Part shown: one piece after another, positions 19,461-32,768 of the stretch | Numbering within the stretch: position 1 is the first letter of the stretch | Layout of the letters: each line of letters begins with the position of its first letter | Source of the DNA: a virus | DNA length: 40,524 nucleotides | Virus record (IMG/VR): IMGVR_UViG_3300011440_000018 | Span: 1 to 40,524 of that record | Reading direction: 5' to 3' (one strand) | Translations under genes and position numbers: made by a program | Notes under the pieces: generated by a model | Told to the model about the DNA's origin: nothing | The model's database searches: none | What the model saw: only the letters and a program-made list of their open reading frames with translations

Positions 19461-19689
19461 CGTCGTCCTTCCCCCTGGCTGGGTCATCAATCCGCTGGTC
19501 GAGCACGTTCCTGACCCGAATTTCCCGGGCATCCTGGCCGGGCCCGGCTTCACGCGCCTGACCTACATCTGCACCGATCAGAACGGCCAGACCGTCTGCG
19601 CCAGCGGGGCCCTGGAGGACTGTGAAGCCCAGGCCTTGACGGCGGCGCAGTCGCGCACGCAGCAGCAACCCTACGACGAGGCCCTCTGA
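19456..19689 (+). CDS. Hypothetical protein (77 aa)
   Basis: Not recognised. N-terminal beta strands and Pro/Gly loops (LPPGWVINPLVEHVPDPNFPG), two or three Cys, then an Ala/Gln helix. It starts at the end of a motif B copy with no classical ribosome site, and its stop overlaps the nozzle ATG. Probably a small tail component. Confidence 0.65.
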   Translation: MAVVLPPGWVINPLVEHVPDPNFPGILAGPGFTRLTYICTDQNGQTVCASGALEDCEAQALTAAQSRTQQQPYDEAL

Positions 19690-21350
19690 TGCCCATCCAG
19701 GCCTACGCCCACCCCCGCCGCACGACGCCGCGCCGCAGCACGCAGACGCGCAACCACTTGGCCTTCGCCTACCCGGCGCCGCAGAAGGGGATCAATACCG
19801 CGCAGCCGCTGCCCGGTGGCGATCCGATGACGGCGATCCGGCTGGAGAACCTGATCCCTCGTGCCCTGGGGGTGCAACTGCGCCGGGGCTACCTGCGCTG
19901 GCAGTCCAACCTCGACGGCGAGGTGCGGTCCTTCCTGAAGTACCAAGCGCCCAACGGCACCGAGGAACTGTTCGCGGCCACCAGCGAGGGCAAGATTTAC
20001 GACGTCACGCTGCCGCTGCCGTCGGTCACGGTCCCGGTGCCCGTGGCGACGGTGATCAATGGCGCGCCGCCCGGCGAATGGACGTCTCTCAACTTCGTGA
20101 CCGGCGCGGGTGTGCATGTCCTGGTGGCCGTGAACCCTGGGGGTGGCTACTGGATTTACGACGGCGCCAACTTCATCCAGATCACGCTGGGCGCTGGCGC
20201 CAATCAGGTCAGCAACATCGACCCCGACACGTTCGTCTTCGTGACGGTCTTCAGGAATCGGCTCTGGTTCCTGACCGAGAACAGCGCGAGCGCGTGGTAC
20301 CTGCCGCTGGGTGTGTACTTCGGGGCTGCTATCGAATTCCCCTTCGGCCCGATGCTGCCCAACGGCGGGGCCCTGGCGGCGCTGGTCAACTGGACGTACG
20401 ACGGCAGCGGCGGCGATGGCGCGGGCACCAGCGGCGGCGGCACCATGAACAGCCAACTGGTGGTGATCAGCGAGCAGGGCGACGTCCTGGTCTACGGCCA
20501 CGCCGACGCCGTCAACCCGACTCTGTTCCAGGGCGTCGAGGGCCGCTGGTACGTGGGCCGTGTGCCGGTGGGCAGGCGCTTCTTCAGCACCTACATGGCC
20601 GACGTCATCATCCTGTCCGAGCGCGGCATGTGCTTCATGTCGGAACTGATGCGCGGCCAGGGCTTCTTCACCAACGTCGGCAACGCCCAGGCGATCAACA
20701 GTTCGCTGGCGGGCGAAATCTCGCGCTCGCTGGACACGCGCTACTGGGAGGTGGTCTTCCTGCCCAGCCAGCAGATGGTGGTGATCAATCGCGCCGAAAT
20801 CAACGTCGAGAATCTCCAGTGGGTCTACGAGGTGAACAACCGCGCCTTCGCCATGCTGCGCGGCATCCCGATGCTGACCCTGGCGCAACTTGGTAGCCGC
20901 GTTTACACGGGCGATCTGGATGGCCGTGTCTGGCAGGCCTTTGAGGGCAACTCGGACGGTCACGTTGACGACATCCCCGGGCTCGACTTGGAGGGCATCG
21001 TCGTGACCGCCTTCCAGGCGCTGGGCGATCCGGTGCGCGTCAAGCGCTTCCTGATGGCCCGGCCCAGCTTCATCTCGCAAGCAGCCCCGGGCGTCATGGT
21101 GCAGATGAATAACGAATGGAACCTGGGCATCACGGGCGCCGCGCCGCCGTACTTGGCCGCTGGCGGCAGCTTGTGGGACTCGGGCCTGTGGGACGTCGCG
21201 GTCTGGTCGGGTGAGGGATCGTCCTACGAATACTGGGCGGGCGTCACTGGCACGGGCCGCTACGGCTCGCTGGCGCTGCGCGTGCGCGGTCCTGCTGACC
21301 TGATCTTCGTCGGCTGGCAGGCGCTGGTTGAAGCCGGGGGCATCTTGTGA
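19689..21350 (+). CDS. Tail nozzle / tail tubular B-like protein (553 aa)
   Basis: Forms the tail tube through which DNA passes. The chain is beta-rich throughout with repeated short strands and aromatic turns (GEVRSFLKYQAPNGTEELFA, GGYWIYDGANFIQITLG, RNRLWFLTENSASAWYLPL), the pattern of the beta-propeller-like nozzle proteins (T7 gp12, P22 gp10). It follows the adaptor, as in those phages. ATG overlaps the preceding stop; its end overlaps the next start (GTGA). Confidence 0.8.
   Translation: MPIQAYAHPRRTTPRRSTQTRNHLAFAYPAPQKGINTAQPLPGGDPMTAIRLENLIPRALGVQLRRGYLRWQSNLDGEVRSFLKYQAPNGTEELFAATSEGKIYDVTLPLPSVTVPVPVATVINGAPPGEWTSLNFVTGAGVHVLVAVNPGGGYWIYDGANFIQITLGAGANQVSNIDPDTFVFVTVFRNRLWFLTENSASAWYLPLGVYFGAAIEFPFGPMLPNGGALAALVNWTYDGSGGDGAGTSGGGTMNSQLVVISEQGDVLVYGHADAVNPTLFQGVEGRWYVGRVPVGRRFFSTYMADVIILSERGMCFMSELMRGQGFFTNVGNAQAINSSLAGEISRSLDTRYWEVVFLPSQQMVVINRAEINVENLQWVYEVNNRAFAMLRGIPMLTLAQLGSRVYTGDLDGRVWQAFEGNSDGHVDDIPGLDLEGIVVTAFQALGDPVRVKRFLMARPSFISQAAPGVMVQMNNEWNLGITGAAPPYLAAGGSLWDSGLWDVAVWSGEGSSYEYWAGVTGTGRYGSLALRVRGPADLIFVGWQALVEAGGIL
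20900..20909 (-). repeat. Motif A copy inside the nozzle gene
   Basis: CGTTTACACG read in the frame C-GTT-TAC-ACG (Val-Tyr-Thr). Confidence 0.75.
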
Positions 21351-21766
21351 TCACGACGCAAGACCAAGCCGCCCTGGTGCAGTGGCTCTGCGAGCGCATC
21401 GGCCTGACGCCTTCGTACGACATCAGGGCCATCGGCAGCTTGTCCTTCGTTGACCAGTCGCTGCGCGGCGTCGTCGCCTACGACGGGTTCAACGGCGCGA
21501 GCGTCGTCATGCACATGGCGGGCGAGCCCGGCTGGCTCGACAAGACCGTGCTGCACGCCGCCTTCGACTACCCGTTCCGGGTGATGGGCTGCAATCAGGT
21601 GCTGGCCTTCGTGCCGAGCGGCAACGACGTCGCGCTCGACATCGACCAGCGCCTGGGGTTTGAGGTGGTGGTCGAGCTTGAGGGGGCGCACCCCGATGGC
21701 TCGCTGTTCGTGCTTCGCATGAAGCGCGAGAATTGCAAGTGGATCGCGCCCCGGCGCACGCACTGA
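21347..21766 (+). CDS. GNAT-like virion-associated protein (139 aa)
   Basis: The region FDYPFRVMGCNQVLAFVPSGNDVALDIDQRLGFEVV resembles the C-terminal half of GNAT acetyltransferases, in which a helix, strand and GF element carry the acetyl-CoA site. T7 gp13-type internal proteins in many phages look like this too. The clear R/Q-x-x-G-x-G/A acyl-CoA loop is not seen, so enzymatic activity is doubtful. It lies between the nozzle and the ejection proteins, pointing to a virion or assembly role. Confidence 0.65.
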   Translation: MITTQDQAALVQWLCERIGLTPSYDIRAIGSLSFVDQSLRGVVAYDGFNGASVVMHMAGEPGWLDKTVLHAAFDYPFRVMGCNQVLAFVPSGNDVALDIDQRLGFEVVVELEGAHPDGSLFVLRMKRENCKWIAPRRTH

Positions 21767-22864: not shown

Positions 22865-23548
22865 ATGAAAATCCTCCAGTTCTCCGGTGGCCTCGACTCT
22901 CTGGCGTGCCTGCTGCTGTTGCAGGACGAACCGGGGCTGCATGTCGTCTCGGTGCTGACCGACGGCGCCTACGGCAGCACCGTCGATTACCTCAACAAGG
23001 TGCGCGAGGCCTTCCCGGCCATCGTCTTCGTCAGCGTGCGTACCGAGCGCGACATCGAGCAGTACGGCCACCCCGTCGATGTCGTGCCGCTGCGCTGGAC
23101 GTTCATGGGGCAGATGATCCGGGGCGCGAAGGACATTCGCTACCAGGACTCCTTCTCGTGCTGCAACCGGGCGATCTGGCAACCGCTGGAGCAGACCAGC
23201 CGGGGCATGGGCGCGACGGTGATCTACCGGGGCCAGCGCGACGACGACAAGCTGCGCGACCCGGCCAACGACGGCATCGTGGTTGACGGCGTGATGTACC
23301 GCTTCCCGATTCATGACTGGACCCGCGAGATGGTCTGGCGCTACGTGGCCGAGCACCGGCCCGATCTGGTGCCTCCAGGCTACGAGGATGGCGAGAAGAC
23401 CAGCCGCGACTGCTGGGACTGCACCGCCTACCTGGACGACAACCATCGCCGCATCGAGAACCTCCCCGCCGCGCAGCGGCACCGTGTAAACGCGCTGGTC
23501 ACCCGCTGGCGCGATGATGTCCTCACAGAAATTGGAGTCCTGCCATGA
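22865..23548 (+). CDS. PP-loop ATPase / PAPS reductase-like protein (227 aa)
   Basis: SGGLDS at residues 7-12 is the ATP pyrophosphatase PP-loop. CC at 99-100, RGQRDDD at 122-128 and CWDC at 183-186 fit the PAPS reductase / DndC-like group, whose members reduce activated sulfate or bind ATP for sulfur or tRNA/DNA modification. The four-Cys arrangement could hold an iron-sulfur cluster. It sits among virion genes, two bases after one ejection protein and overlapping the next gene by ATGA, so it is expressed late with them. Its substrate cannot be read from the sequence. Confidence 0.8.
   Translation: MKILQFSGGLDSLACLLLLQDEPGLHVVSVLTDGAYGSTVDYLNKVREAFPAIVFVSVRTERDIEQYGHPVDVVPLRWTFMGQMIRGAKDIRYQDSFSCCNRAIWQPLEQTSRGMGATVIYRGQRDDDKLRDPANDGIVVDGVMYRFPIHDWTREMVWRYVAEHRPDLVPPGYEDGEKTSRDCWDCTAYLDDNHRRIENLPAAQRHRVNALVTRWRDDVLTEIGVLP
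23483..23492 (+). repeat. Motif A copy inside the PP-loop gene
   Basis: Exact CGTGTAAACG read as Arg-Val-Asn near the C-terminus. Confidence 0.75.
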
Positions 23549-29627: not shown

Positions 29628-29822
29628 ATGTCCCTCGTCAGCCTGCTCATCACGATCCTCATCCTGGGCCTGATCTTCGGCTTGGTCTGGTGGGTCATCT
29701 CGCAGATACCCATGCCCCCACCCTTCAAGATGGCTGCACAGGTGGTCTTCGCCATCATCTGCATCATCGTGCTGCTGGGGCTGCTGACCGGCACGATGGC
29801 CCTGCCGGTGCTCAAGCTGTAG
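29628..29822 (+). CDS. Holin-like membrane protein (64 aa)
   Basis: Two hydrophobic segments, about residues 4-26 (VSLLITILILGLIFGLVWWV) and 35-57 (MAAQVVFAIICIIVLLGLL), separated by a short Pro-rich turn. This is the layout of small two-span holins and of a widespread small phage membrane protein family. It is the last rightward gene, a typical lysis position, with GGAGG upstream. No endolysin gene was found beside it, so the function is not proven. Confidence 0.65.
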   Translation: MSLVSLLITILILGLIFGLVWWVISQIPMPPPFKMAAQVVFAIICIIVLLGLLTGTMALPVLKL

Positions 29823-29824
29823 GC

Positions 29825-29852
29825 GTAAAAAAGGCCCCCTTGCGGGGGCCTT
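29825..29852 (-). terminator. Intrinsic terminator between the two transcription arms
   Basis: Arms AAGGCCCCC (29831-29839) and GGGGGCCTT (29844-29852). On the minus strand the stem is followed by a run of six T, so it is a strong terminator for leftward transcription after the PEP-CTERM gene. On the plus strand only two T follow, so rightward termination is weaker. Confidence 0.85.
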
Positions 29853-29905: not shown

Positions 29906-30739
29906 TCAGGCGGGTGCCATCAGCATCGGATCGGCGGCGCGGCGGCGGCGCTTGCTCATGAAGCCCACGGCGCCAAGACCGGCCAGCATCAGGGCGTAGG
30001 TCGAAGGCTCCGGGATCGCGGGCACTGCGCGCAGGTAGGCCCATTCTTCAAACCCGTCACCCGTGTCGGCCCCCGAGAAGGCGCCGAAGCCCGTGCCGAA
30101 GATGATGCGGCTGTCCATGTCCACGCCAGCGAACTGCGACACGGGGATCAGCATCGACAGGTCGTAGCCCAGGCCGCTACCGGCGAACAGGGTGCCGTCC
30201 ATGACCAGGGTGTTCGTCGGCCCCAGGGCGTAGATCAGCGACGGGAACAGGCCATCGACGTCGGCCAGCGAGGTGACGTTGTCGCGGGTCAGCAGTTGCT
30301 GCGCCACCGAATTGGCGTCCCACAGACGGATCGTGTCGATGCTGATCAGGAAGTCGTTCGGGCCGTTGGGTTCGTTCGTGTCGAGGAAGAAGGCGTAGTA
30401 GTCGATCCCCGCGACATTGACGAAGGCCAGATCGTTGCGCGTGAACGTGCGCGTGAACGTGTTGATGTTGTCGCGCTTGCCGTCCAGCGGCAGCAGGTTC
30501 ACCAGCGGCGTGTCGGTGCTGACCCCGAATTCGATGCCGTTGGCCTGCGTGCCCAGGAAGGGCGTGATCGAGCCAGAGCCGATGTTCGACAGGTTCGTCG
30601 GGTTCTGGAAGATCGTCGTGCCGCCGCTTGTGTCGGTGGCGAAGGTGCAGGTGCCGTCCTTCGCCAGCAGGCTGCAAACCTCGGCCTGCGCTGCGAAGGC
30701 CAGGGCGAGAAGCGCCCCTGCCAAAAGTGTCTTCTTCAT
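29906..30739 (-). CDS. PEP-CTERM secreted protein (277 aa)
   Basis: The N-terminus (KKTLLAGALLALAFAAQA) is a standard Sec signal peptide cleaved after AQA. The C-terminus has all three parts of a PEP-CTERM sorting signal: PEPST at about residues 243-247, a hydrophobic helix (YALMLAGLGAVGF) and an Arg cluster (KRRRR at 263-267). In bacteria this signal is processed by exosortase in strains that make exopolysaccharide. The central 220 residues are beta-rich and acidic with no enzyme motif. Ten residues extend beyond the Arg cluster, slightly more than usual. Start: ATG at 30737-30739 with GGAGAG upstream. It ends the leftward operon and is probably of bacterial origin. Confidence 0.85.
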   Translation of the reverse strand: MKKTLLAGALLALAFAAQAEVCSLLAKDGTCTFATDTSGGTTIFQNPTNLSNIGSGSITPFLGTQANGIEFGVSTDTPLVNLLPLDGKRDNINTFTRTFTRNDLAFVNVAGIDYYAFFLDTNEPNGPNDFLISIDTIRLWDANSVAQQLLTRDNVTSLADVDGLFPSLIYALGPTNTLVMDGTLFAGSGLGYDLSMLIPVSQFAGVDMDSRIIFGTGFGAFSGADTGDGFEEWAYLRAVPAIPEPSTYALMLAGLGAVGFMSKRRRRAADPMLMAPA

Positions 30740-30806: not shown

Positions 30807-31025
30807 TTACTGCGGGCCGGGCGCCGGGTCATCCCCCGCGCTGTTGCCGGGCCACGGCGGCATGTGGGGCCTCGGCGCCTCGGTCGTCTGCTCCTGGCGG
30901 CGCCGGTTCTCGGCGGCGATCTGGTTGCCCAGGTTTTGCAGCAGCATGTAGCTGACCCTGGCGGGCATCTCGCCCAGGGCTTGCAGCACGAGGTTTGCTT
31001 CTTGGTCGTTCAGTTCGATCTTCAT
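30807..31025 (-). CDS. Hypothetical protein (72 aa)
   Basis: Not recognised. Residues 1-45 form a helical unit (KIELNDQEANLVLQALGEMPARVSYMLLQNLGNQIAAE) seen in other phage proteins as a short all-helical domain, followed by a Pro-rich disordered tail. It lies one base after the HTH gene stop. The 67-base gap downstream, before the PEP-CTERM gene, shows only a ribosome site. Confidence 0.65.
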   Translation of the reverse strand: MKIELNDQEANLVLQALGEMPARVSYMLLQNLGNQIAAENRRRQEQTTEAPRPHMPPWPGNSAGDDPAPGPQ

Positions 31026-31026
31026 C

Positions 31027-31374
31027 TCAATTGCTCCAGGGGAAGTCAGGCCGAAAAATGGCCGGGGGTACTTTGAACACTTGGGCGAACTGCTGGGCCC
31101 GCAGGACCGGCAGGGGGAAGTTGCGGTCAGCGCGGCAGGCGCGCTCCCACTTGTACAGAGACTGGGGCGCGATGCCCAGGGCGCGGGCGATGCTCGACTT
31201 GTTGCGGTTCTCCGGGTCCAGGCCGATGTGGATCGTCATCAGGTGCAGCAGCGGGTGGCCGCGCATGCGCTGGCCGCTGGGCAGCGTCGAGGGCAGCTTG
31301 AGCACGGGCTGGCGCGAGCCGGGGCCCGTGCCGCCCTTCAGCTTGGGCTTGGCGGGGGTCTTGGTCTTGGTCAT
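31027..31374 (-). CDS. HTH transcriptional regulator, Cro/YdaS-like (115 aa)
   Basis: Residues about 59-77 (KSSIARALGIAPQSLYKWE) make a helix-turn-helix with the A-x-x-L-G-I-x-x-x-x-x-x-K-W pattern of Cro/YdaS-type proteins. The N-terminal 40 residues are basic and flexible, and the C-terminal part (FAQVFKVPPAIFRPDFPW) is often found as a dimerisation or YdaS-like tail. It lies after the SNF2-type helicase in the operon and could control late or early promoters. ATGA overlap with the helicase gene. Confidence 0.75.
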   Translation of the reverse strand: MTKTKTPAKPKLKGGTGPGSRQPVLKLPSTLPSGQRMRGHPLLHLMTIHIGLDPENRNKSSIARALGIAPQSLYKWERACRADRNFPLPVLRAQQFAQVFKVPPAIFRPDFPWSN

Positions 31375-32768
31375 GTCGTACCTTTCAGGCGGTTGAGGAT
31401 CGCGGCCTGGACGTCGCCCTTGCCGATCAGGGCCTTGGCGATGTCCTCGTCAACGGTGCCCTGGGCTGTAATGTAGTGGACAACGACGGTCTTGTCTTGC
31501 CCCTGGCGGTAGACCCGGGCGTTGAACTGGATGTGCTCCTCCAGGCTCCAGGTCAGGCCAAACCAGCAGACGGCGTGACCGCCAGCCTGGAGGTTCAGGC
31601 CGTGGGCCACCGACGTCGGGTGGGCCAGCAGGACCGGGTGCTCGCCGTCGTTCCAGTCGGCCACGACACGGTCAGCCACCTCGCGGCTGACGCCACCGCC
31701 CAGGTACGGCACGACGGTGCCCTCGGGCAGGACATCCTTCAGGGCGGCGCGGATCGCATCCACCTCGTGCAGGAAGGCCACGGCCACCAGCAGCGGCGTG
31801 CCGCTCTGCTCCTCGACCAGATCGGCCAGGGCCGACAGCTTGGCGGTGTGGATCGGCACGCTGCCTTCCTCGCCGTAGGCCCAGCCGTTGGTGATCTGGC
31901 GCAGCTTCATCGTGGCCGCTGCCGCTGTCGCCGCCGTCAGGGTGGCGCCGTCGGCGGTCTTCGCCACCAGATCGTCGGCCAGGGCGTCGTAGACCTTGCG
32001 GGCGGGCTTGCCGATTTCCACCGGGATCACGTTGTAGATGATCGGCGGCATGGTCAGGTAGTCCTCGGCCTGGAGGCGCAGCGAGATGTCGGCGATCTGC
32101 CCGGCCACCATCTTCATCGCGCCGGGGCGGGCGTGCCACTTGGTCACGGTGCGGCCACCGCCGACACGAATCTCCTCGGGGTCCATGAAGTTCTTGCGGA
32201 AGTGGGTGATGAAGCGGCCCAGGCGCTTGCCGTCGTCCAGGATTTGAATCTGGCTGAACAGGTCTTCGATGCCCTGGGGCACAGGGGTGCCGGTCAGGAT
32301 GATGCGGCGTGTAAACGACGGCAGCATGGTCTGGAGGGCCTTGAAGCGGGTGCTGCGCCCGTTCTTGAAGCGGGTGGACTCATCGACCACCAGCAGCGTC
32401 GGCGTGACGGCGAATTTGTCCAGGCCGTAGCCCGCCAGCCAATCGACCATCTCGGGGTTGATCAGGTAGACGTCGGCGGGCGTACGCATTGCAGCTTCGC
32501 GCTGCTTGGGCGTGCCGTGGACGATGCTCACGCGGAGGTGCTTGAACTGGTCCCACTTCGCCACCTCGTTGGGCCATGTCAGGTACATGGGCCGGATCGG
32601 CGCGATCACCAGGGTGGCCTCGATCAGGCCGTGATGCTGGAGCACGCAGTGCGCGGCCAGGGTGATCGACGTCTTGCCCATGCCGGGGTCGAGGAACAGG
32701 GCGCTGCCAGCCTTGTCGCACGCCAGTTGGATCGCCTTGATCTGGAAGGGGTGGGGGTTGTATTGCAT
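31371..32768 (-). CDS. SNF2-type DNA helicase/translocase (465 aa)
   Basis: A superfamily 2 ATPase of the short phage SNF2 group. Motif I is DPGMGKT (27-33), motif II is DEST (129-132), motif III TGTP (159-162) and motif VI QFNARVYRQGQ (414-424). The N-terminal PHPFQIKAI is a Q-motif-like element. It probably remodels or unwinds DNA during replication or recombination, as does the homologue in phage modules with polymerase and VRR-NUC. The promoter at 32796-32825 lies directly upstream. A motif A copy just precedes motif III. Confidence 0.85.
   Translation of the reverse strand: MQYNPHPFQIKAIQLACDKAGSALFLDPGMGKTSITLAAHCVLQHHGLIEATLVIAPIRPMYLTWPNEVAKWDQFKHLRVSIVHGTPKQREAAMRTPADVYLINPEMVDWLAGYGLDKFAVTPTLLVVDESTRFKNGRSTRFKALQTMLPSFTRRIILTGTPVPQGIEDLFSQIQILDDGKRLGRFITHFRKNFMDPEEIRVGGGRTVTKWHARPGAMKMVAGQIADISLRLQAEDYLTMPPIIYNVIPVEIGKPARKVYDALADDLVAKTADGATLTAATAAAATMKLRQITNGWAYGEEGSVPIHTAKLSALADLVEEQSGTPLLVAVAFLHEVDAIRAALKDVLPEGTVVPYLGGGVSREVADRVVADWNDGEHPVLLAHPTSVAHGLNLQAGGHAVCWFGLTWSLEEHIQFNARVYRQGQDKTVVVHYITAQGTVDEDIAKALIGKGDVQAAILNRLKGTT
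32308..32317 (+). repeat. Motif A copy inside the SNF2 gene
   Basis: Exact CGTGTAAACG on the plus strand. On the coding strand it is read TCG TTT ACA CGC (Ser-Phe-Thr-Arg), a third reading frame compared with other copies. Confidence 0.75.

Follow-up and report, generated by a model that had tools for sequence, protein, structure and literature searches.

A PEP-CTERM protein gene at an accessory position in a group of phages that probably borrow host surface sorting

The window analyzed here (the whole 40,524-nucleotide stretch, IMG/VR record IMGVR_UViG_3300011440_000018) carries, at 29906-30739 on the minus strand, a gene that almost certainly encodes a PEP-CTERM substrate as part of a phage genome. 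Exported, PEP-CTERM-tagged proteins sit at one fixed genome position in the uncultured phages concerned; thus, the phage probably borrows the sorting machinery of its host to deliver a protein of its own, during infection, to the cell surface or slime layer. Surface sorting by PEP-CTERM/exosortase is common among environmental Gram-negative bacteria but poorly understood, and it is tied to exopolysaccharide (EPS) and floc formation. As far as our search shows, the system is known only as bacterial; if our reading is true, viruses exploit it. An earlier note on this DNA had described a single gene, and the conserved, swappable slot for exosortase substrates that we find in a phage clade is a stronger observation.

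The gene and its place in the genome

The 40,524-bp record reads as a phage genome. It has a 123-bp end repeat (terminal overlap), a rightward arm with terminase, portal, major head protein, tail, and amidase genes (the last at 19689-21350), and a leftward arm with genes for an exonuclease, a DNA polymerase, a primase-helicase, a resolvase-like nuclease, and a helicase. This gene content, the end repeat, and the gene order conserved in relatives confirm that the PEP-CTERM gene is phage encoded, as the earlier note had claimed. The gene is the final one of the leftward arm, at the point where the arms converge, and next to it, as also claimed, lies a terminator-like structure. The features needed below, all on the minus strand, are as follows.

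29826..29852: terminator-like hairpin plus U run closing the leftward transcription unit, just past the PEP-CTERM gene (-23.5 kcal/mol, z -3.05)
29906..30739: PEP-CTERM protein gene, family A (277 aa; PF07589 and TIGR02595 above cutoff)
29942..30019: PEP-CTERM tail codons, with PEP motif, hydrophobic helix, and Arg cluster, about residues 241-266 (profile match at 241-265; PEP invariant in 12 homologues)
30683..30739: predicted Sec signal peptide codons, residues 1-19, MKKTLLAGALLALAFAAQA (sequence inspection: n/h/c-region layout, A-Q-A cleavage motif)
30807..31025: conserved 72-aa gene directly upstream of the slot (same-order homologues in related phages)
31027..31374: 115-aa helix-turn-helix (HTH)-like protein, the second conserved slot marker (same-order homologues; HTH matches weak, below cutoff)
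31371..32768: DNA helicase, the anchor for finding the slot in other phages (phrog_62, E 9.5e-133)

The hairpin has a 9-bp G+C-rich stem (about 29831-29852) and a U6 run on the minus strand; a consensus terminator scan did not flag it. Neither tRNA nor Rfam elements were found in the window. That the PEP-CTERM gene comes last in the replication arm does not reveal when it is expressed. The rightward arm ends in a gene for a 64-aa two-helix membrane protein (29628-29822, plus strand), which is conserved in relatives and also adjoins the PEP-CTERM gene of an unrelated phage, L133.

The gene is an uninterrupted open reading frame with an ATG start downstream of a GGAG ribosome-binding site. The earlier note had read a full sorting signal in its product (signal peptide, PEP, helix, and Arg cluster) and had named a profile search as a check, and both profiles bear the reading out. 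The 277-aa protein matches PF07589 (PEP-CTERM) at residues 241-265 with an E value of 2.3e-8 and 34.2 bits against a cutoff of 20.7, and it matches TIGR02595 with 27.8 bits against a cutoff of 16; these cutoffs are the curated Pfam and TIGRFAM values. By eye, the N terminus, in which EVC follows the signal peptide residues listed above, resembles a Sec signal peptide in its layout and contains no lipobox. The tail consists of PEPSTYALMLAGLGAVGFMSKRRRR plus 10 further residues, the C-terminal sequence being IPEPSTYALMLAGLGAVGFMSKRRRRAADPMLMAPA. These ten residues follow position 267, most homologues ending sooner. Fewer than 10 residues follow the basic cluster in 87% of known PEP-CTERM cases (Haft et al. 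2006, PMC1569441), and the window protein, with its ten, lies at the limit of what is usual.

The only Cys residues of the body, at positions 22 and 31, are both invariant across family A. Compared with the other phage proteins, the body is rich in Thr (10.9% versus 5.8%) and Asn (6.8% versus 3.6%) and poor in Lys plus Arg (4.1% versus 9.9%); it fits the Thr/Asn-rich composition with few basic residues described for PEP-CTERM proteins (Haft et al. 2006, PMC1569441). Across 300 simulated windows, a loose tail pattern with no signal-peptide requirement came up twice, against one occurrence in the real window, so that a chance tail is unlikely even when the homologues are left aside; what settles the PEP-CTERM identity is that many independent contigs conserve it at this locus. 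The body belongs to no recognized Pfam family, and profile searches found no enzyme domain in it. A sequence search of solved structures gave no match. The structure model of family A is of low confidence (pLDDT 52.9), with helices at positions 4-12 and 245-269; with this model, Foldseek returned no match at an E value of 0.001 or less, and the best Z score in VIA-align was 5.0.

An accessory slot in related phages

Relatives were found in IMG/VR via the helicase anchor and, together with three extra loci, make up 30 contigs. Four of the 30 helicase-sharing contigs end before the slot, and the other 26 are readable. The gene order in the relatives runs from the helicase through the HTH-like gene and a gene of about 70 aa to the slot, which contains an exosortase-type substrate in 21 of the 26 readable contigs and lacks one in 5. 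Because several contigs are near-identical, the independent cases are fewer than 26; a second contig carries a gene identical to the window PEP-CTERM gene.

The slot holds one of the following: family A; family B (about 216 aa) and/or family C (about 200 aa), arranged in tandem with either one first; or an Npun_F0296-type protein that is truncated. A layout of signal peptide and tail is common to families A, B, and C, but their bodies differ. The Npun_F0296-type protein, in L098, is truncated by the contig end and matches NF050191 with 36.8 bits (cutoff, 29). Along the branches of the helicase tree, slot contents vary. Two sister contigs, L088 with an empty slot and L109 with family A, align at 90 to 93% on both sides of the slot, L088 having 36 bp where L109 has about 0.94 kb that contains only the family A gene. 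Because contents vary on the helicase tree and sisters show a clean presence or absence of one gene, the slot behaves like an accessory-gene position, in agreement with the earlier note.

Two observations concern other genes at this locus. (i) In L102 (12106-13414, plus strand), the slot is occupied by two different proteins that appear to be secreted but have no PEP-CTERM tail; the first has no Pfam match. (ii) In L088 (4421-5785, minus strand), the slot is adjoined by a convergent gene for an exported protein whose body is of the GYDDPIVYPGKPGAAHHHTFF type, as it is by the corresponding reverse-strand gene in L109; this protein may resemble DUF1996.

In a second, capsid-based set, restricted to records of about 37 kb or more, five records with capsid identities of 81 to 94% carry PEP-CTERM genes in addition to the window. 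A record at 91% has none, and one at 95% ends just after the HTH gene and is uninformative. Records at 80% or less are without PEP-CTERM genes, except for G041 (a 15.5-kb record), which has an unrelated PEP-CTERM protein (family D).

Pairwise dN/dS values are 0.11 to 0.58 for family A, 0.19 to 0.57 for family B, and 0.15 to 0.40 for family C, with every pair below 1; the three families are under purifying selection. Across 49 to 71% identity, family A keeps the body motifs KRDN and DG-EEW and the two Cys residues. The signal peptide, hydrophobic helix, and basic cluster are likewise retained in diverged homologues from phages. Absence of the motif from orthologues, which the earlier note had named as contrary evidence, was not observed: PEP is invariant in 12 of 12 family A members, and all 12 match PF07589 at an E value of 0.1 or less. 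The weak tails of four members (G053, G054, G056, and G057) had been missed by a first-look genome search.

The family B model (pLDDT 70.8) is a generic beta-sandwich. Its best matches, to adhesin and carbohydrate-binding modules, are nonsignificant (E values of 7e-3 and up), with Z scores that are 7.0 or less and are shared with unrelated adaptin and toxin domains, and nothing was found among viral models. We derive no function from either structure model.

The same families elsewhere and known relatives

Profiles of families A, B, and C recruit further viral contigs of varied sizes and backbones. In L132 (64.7 kb), L140 (43.0 kb), and L149 (67.9 kb), substrate genes lie near a phage-type DNA polymerase gene, and in L133 a RecE-like gene is near the substrate gene. 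L132 (5359-6816, plus strand) has C and A in tandem, which is a third combination of modules. L138 (124-3049, plus strand) has two PEP-CTERM genes near a lambda-like tail fiber J gene and may be a prophage edge or a prophage-borne copy. L157 and L158 were left out of the phage count because their proteins are distant and their neighbors uninformative; these two, together with L181, L184, and L138, may be host or prophage flanks. Records of 64 to 116 kb have at most two PEP-CTERM matches each; the median number of PEP-CTERM proteins per host genome is eight (Haft et al. 2006, PMC1569441).

In a DNA scan for VPEPxxYAxMxAG across all 2.9 million viral contigs, 21 contigs were found, 17 of which carry families A, B, or C. 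Such a tail is therefore a rarity in viral contigs, with most cases in the phages that carry these families. PEP-CTERM proteins with unrelated bodies occur in L186 (286 kb, jumbo-sized), L191, L181, and L184, contigs that are classed as viral.

The earlier note had suggested looking for phage homologues in the same place. These are present in the IMG/VR relatives, as the 21 of 26 slots show, and absent from a collection of 50,697 phage records, in which no homologues of families A to D were found and no credible match was obtained for the tail on its own; the same collection contains no set of phage homologues with a nonsecreted function, the other result that would have spoken against the note. 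Plasmids yielded no relative of the family A body, nothing for family C, and only one tail match (Aquabacterium). In 84,980 bacterial genomes, no relatives of A or C were found by a weak scan that used two short motifs per query (A1 and A2 among the queries), and because only two short motifs were used for each, bacterial relatives may well exist. A host origin of at least family C is likely, because C is a member of a bacterial family already known.

That family is FxDxF (NF038126; cutoff, 50 bits), which family C proteins match with 71.8, 75.1, and 77.4 bits and a family B member in L147 with 55.3 bits; the window's family A protein stays below the cutoff at 40.4 bits, in the tail only. The Npun_F0296 family (NF050191) resembles the L098 slot gene, which passes the domain cutoff, and has a body unrelated to A, B, and C. 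The EpsH/XrtA-type PEP-CTERM/exosortase substrates of Gram-negative bacteria (PMC1569441) have the same signal peptide, Thr/Asn-rich low-basic body, and PEP/helix/Arg tail, whereas the substrates described here are phage encoded, number one or two per genome, have no accompanying exosortase, and have a body outside Pfam. The flocculation-associated protein PepA of Aquincola (NF033554, PMC9850573) has the same sorting signal but is encoded by an RpoN-controlled host gene, not phage borne; at the whole-protein NF033554 cutoff of 80 bits, the window protein is not among the matches listed and the best related phage protein reaches 38.6 bits. The earlier note knew of no description of phage PEP-CTERM proteins, and our full-text literature searches likewise found no paper on them; a 2025 Microcystis paper on PEP-CTERM deals with host genes. 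Thus, the kind of protein is known, while its use by phages, with several families per slot, appears to be undescribed.

Probable role and alternative explanations

No exosortase (TIGR02602) was found in 29 phage records, including the window, so that processing must rely on a host exosortase. We infer an exosortase-positive host for the window phage. If the host does have the enzyme, routing of the protein through it is likely. According to the model of Haft et al. 2006 (PMC1569441), PEP-CTERM proteins are exported by Sec, their PEP motif is recognized at the periplasmic face, and after cleavage they move onward to the outer surface or EPS. By the same route, the phage protein would cross the inner membrane via Sec during infection, the host exosortase would recognize and cut its PEP-CTERM tail, and the mature body would end up in the outer envelope or EPS, where it would most likely modify the exterior of the infected cell, as a protein of the surface or matrix. 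A phage protein of this kind could alter the coat of the infected cell, exclude phages that arrive later, or keep infected cells within the matrix.

Our best explanation, which we consider probable, is that a phage accessory gene makes an exported exosortase substrate that acts at the outside of the infected cell. A benefit to the phage through the envelope or EPS is likewise probable, and a role in the matrix is suggested by analogy with Aquincola, in which overexpressed PepA led to less soluble EPS, more bound EPS, and restored flocs (PMC9850573). Among specific effects, superinfection exclusion is our first choice, a tentative one; a plausible second is that infected cells are retained, or aggregate, in the matrix. 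Ltp of Streptococcus thermophilus phages (PMC3952083), a phage protein on the infected cell surface that causes superinfection exclusion, offers an analogy of working only: it is a lipoprotein of a temperate phage of a Gram-positive host, whereas the window protein has no lipobox and a different anchor or sorting route. More broadly, we lean toward the view that several phage lineages keep a dedicated slot for exosortase-dependent effectors, in which A, B, C, and Npun_F0296-type proteins are swapped, and thereby remodel the outside of the infected cell. If this is true, EPS and surface proteins are a front line between such hosts and their phages, and the phage proteins are small natural substrates for exosortase study. 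There is possible relevance to activated-sludge and biofilm communities, in which flocs are held together by PEP-CTERM proteins.

Alternatively, the protein might be a decoy, overproduced to tie up the host exosortase and leave host PEP-CTERM proteins, be they receptors or EPS anchors, unmatured, the body being only a carrier. Several unrelated bodies have just the slot and the tail in common, as they would if the active part were the tail. However, the bodies are under purifying selection, with the invariant motifs and Cys residues described above, and in some relatives the tail is less conserved than the body; we consider a decoy unlikely. Somewhat less likely still is a helper of lysis or release that loosens the envelope or matrix late in infection. 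The exported, beta-rich body and the adjoining convergent arm, which ends in the two-helix membrane protein, would fit such a role, but the gene lies in the leftward replication arm, away from the amidase gene, and its product has no enzyme domain detectable by profile searches.

Passive cargo, that is, a host gene picked up recently and of no benefit to the phage, is improbable. PEP-CTERM genes are abundant and fast evolving in some hosts, and sister phages differ by presence or absence of the gene; against this, the slot is conserved in many contigs, all tested pairs have dN/dS values below 1, the families are common to unrelated phages, and no bacterial relative of family A was found in the two-motif scan or in plasmids. 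A host fragment misassembled into, or miscalled as, a viral contig is very improbable: the record does derive from a metagenome, and some other PEP-CTERM contigs may be host or prophage flanks (see above), but the window has a terminal overlap, its PEP-CTERM gene recurs unchanged in another contig, and its gene order is found again in many independent samples; for the window's clade, conserved synteny refutes an artifact.

Thus, an exported exosortase substrate acting outside the infected cell remains the preferred reading. As to the phage itself, the genes that we examined include no integrase, which makes a lytic lifestyle likely, though short of proven, as annotation of the left end is poor. 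By capsid, Stenotrophomonas phage BUCT555 (68%) comes closest among isolated phages, but its replication arm contains no close match to the helicase, and it does not indicate a host for the clade. Within the structural arm, the window encodes a GNAT-type acyltransferase (21347-21766, plus strand; phrog_4470), which is annotated at a similar place in BUCT555, and, among the tail genes, a PAPS-reductase/HUP-domain protein (22865-23548, plus strand; PF01507, 39.6 bits).
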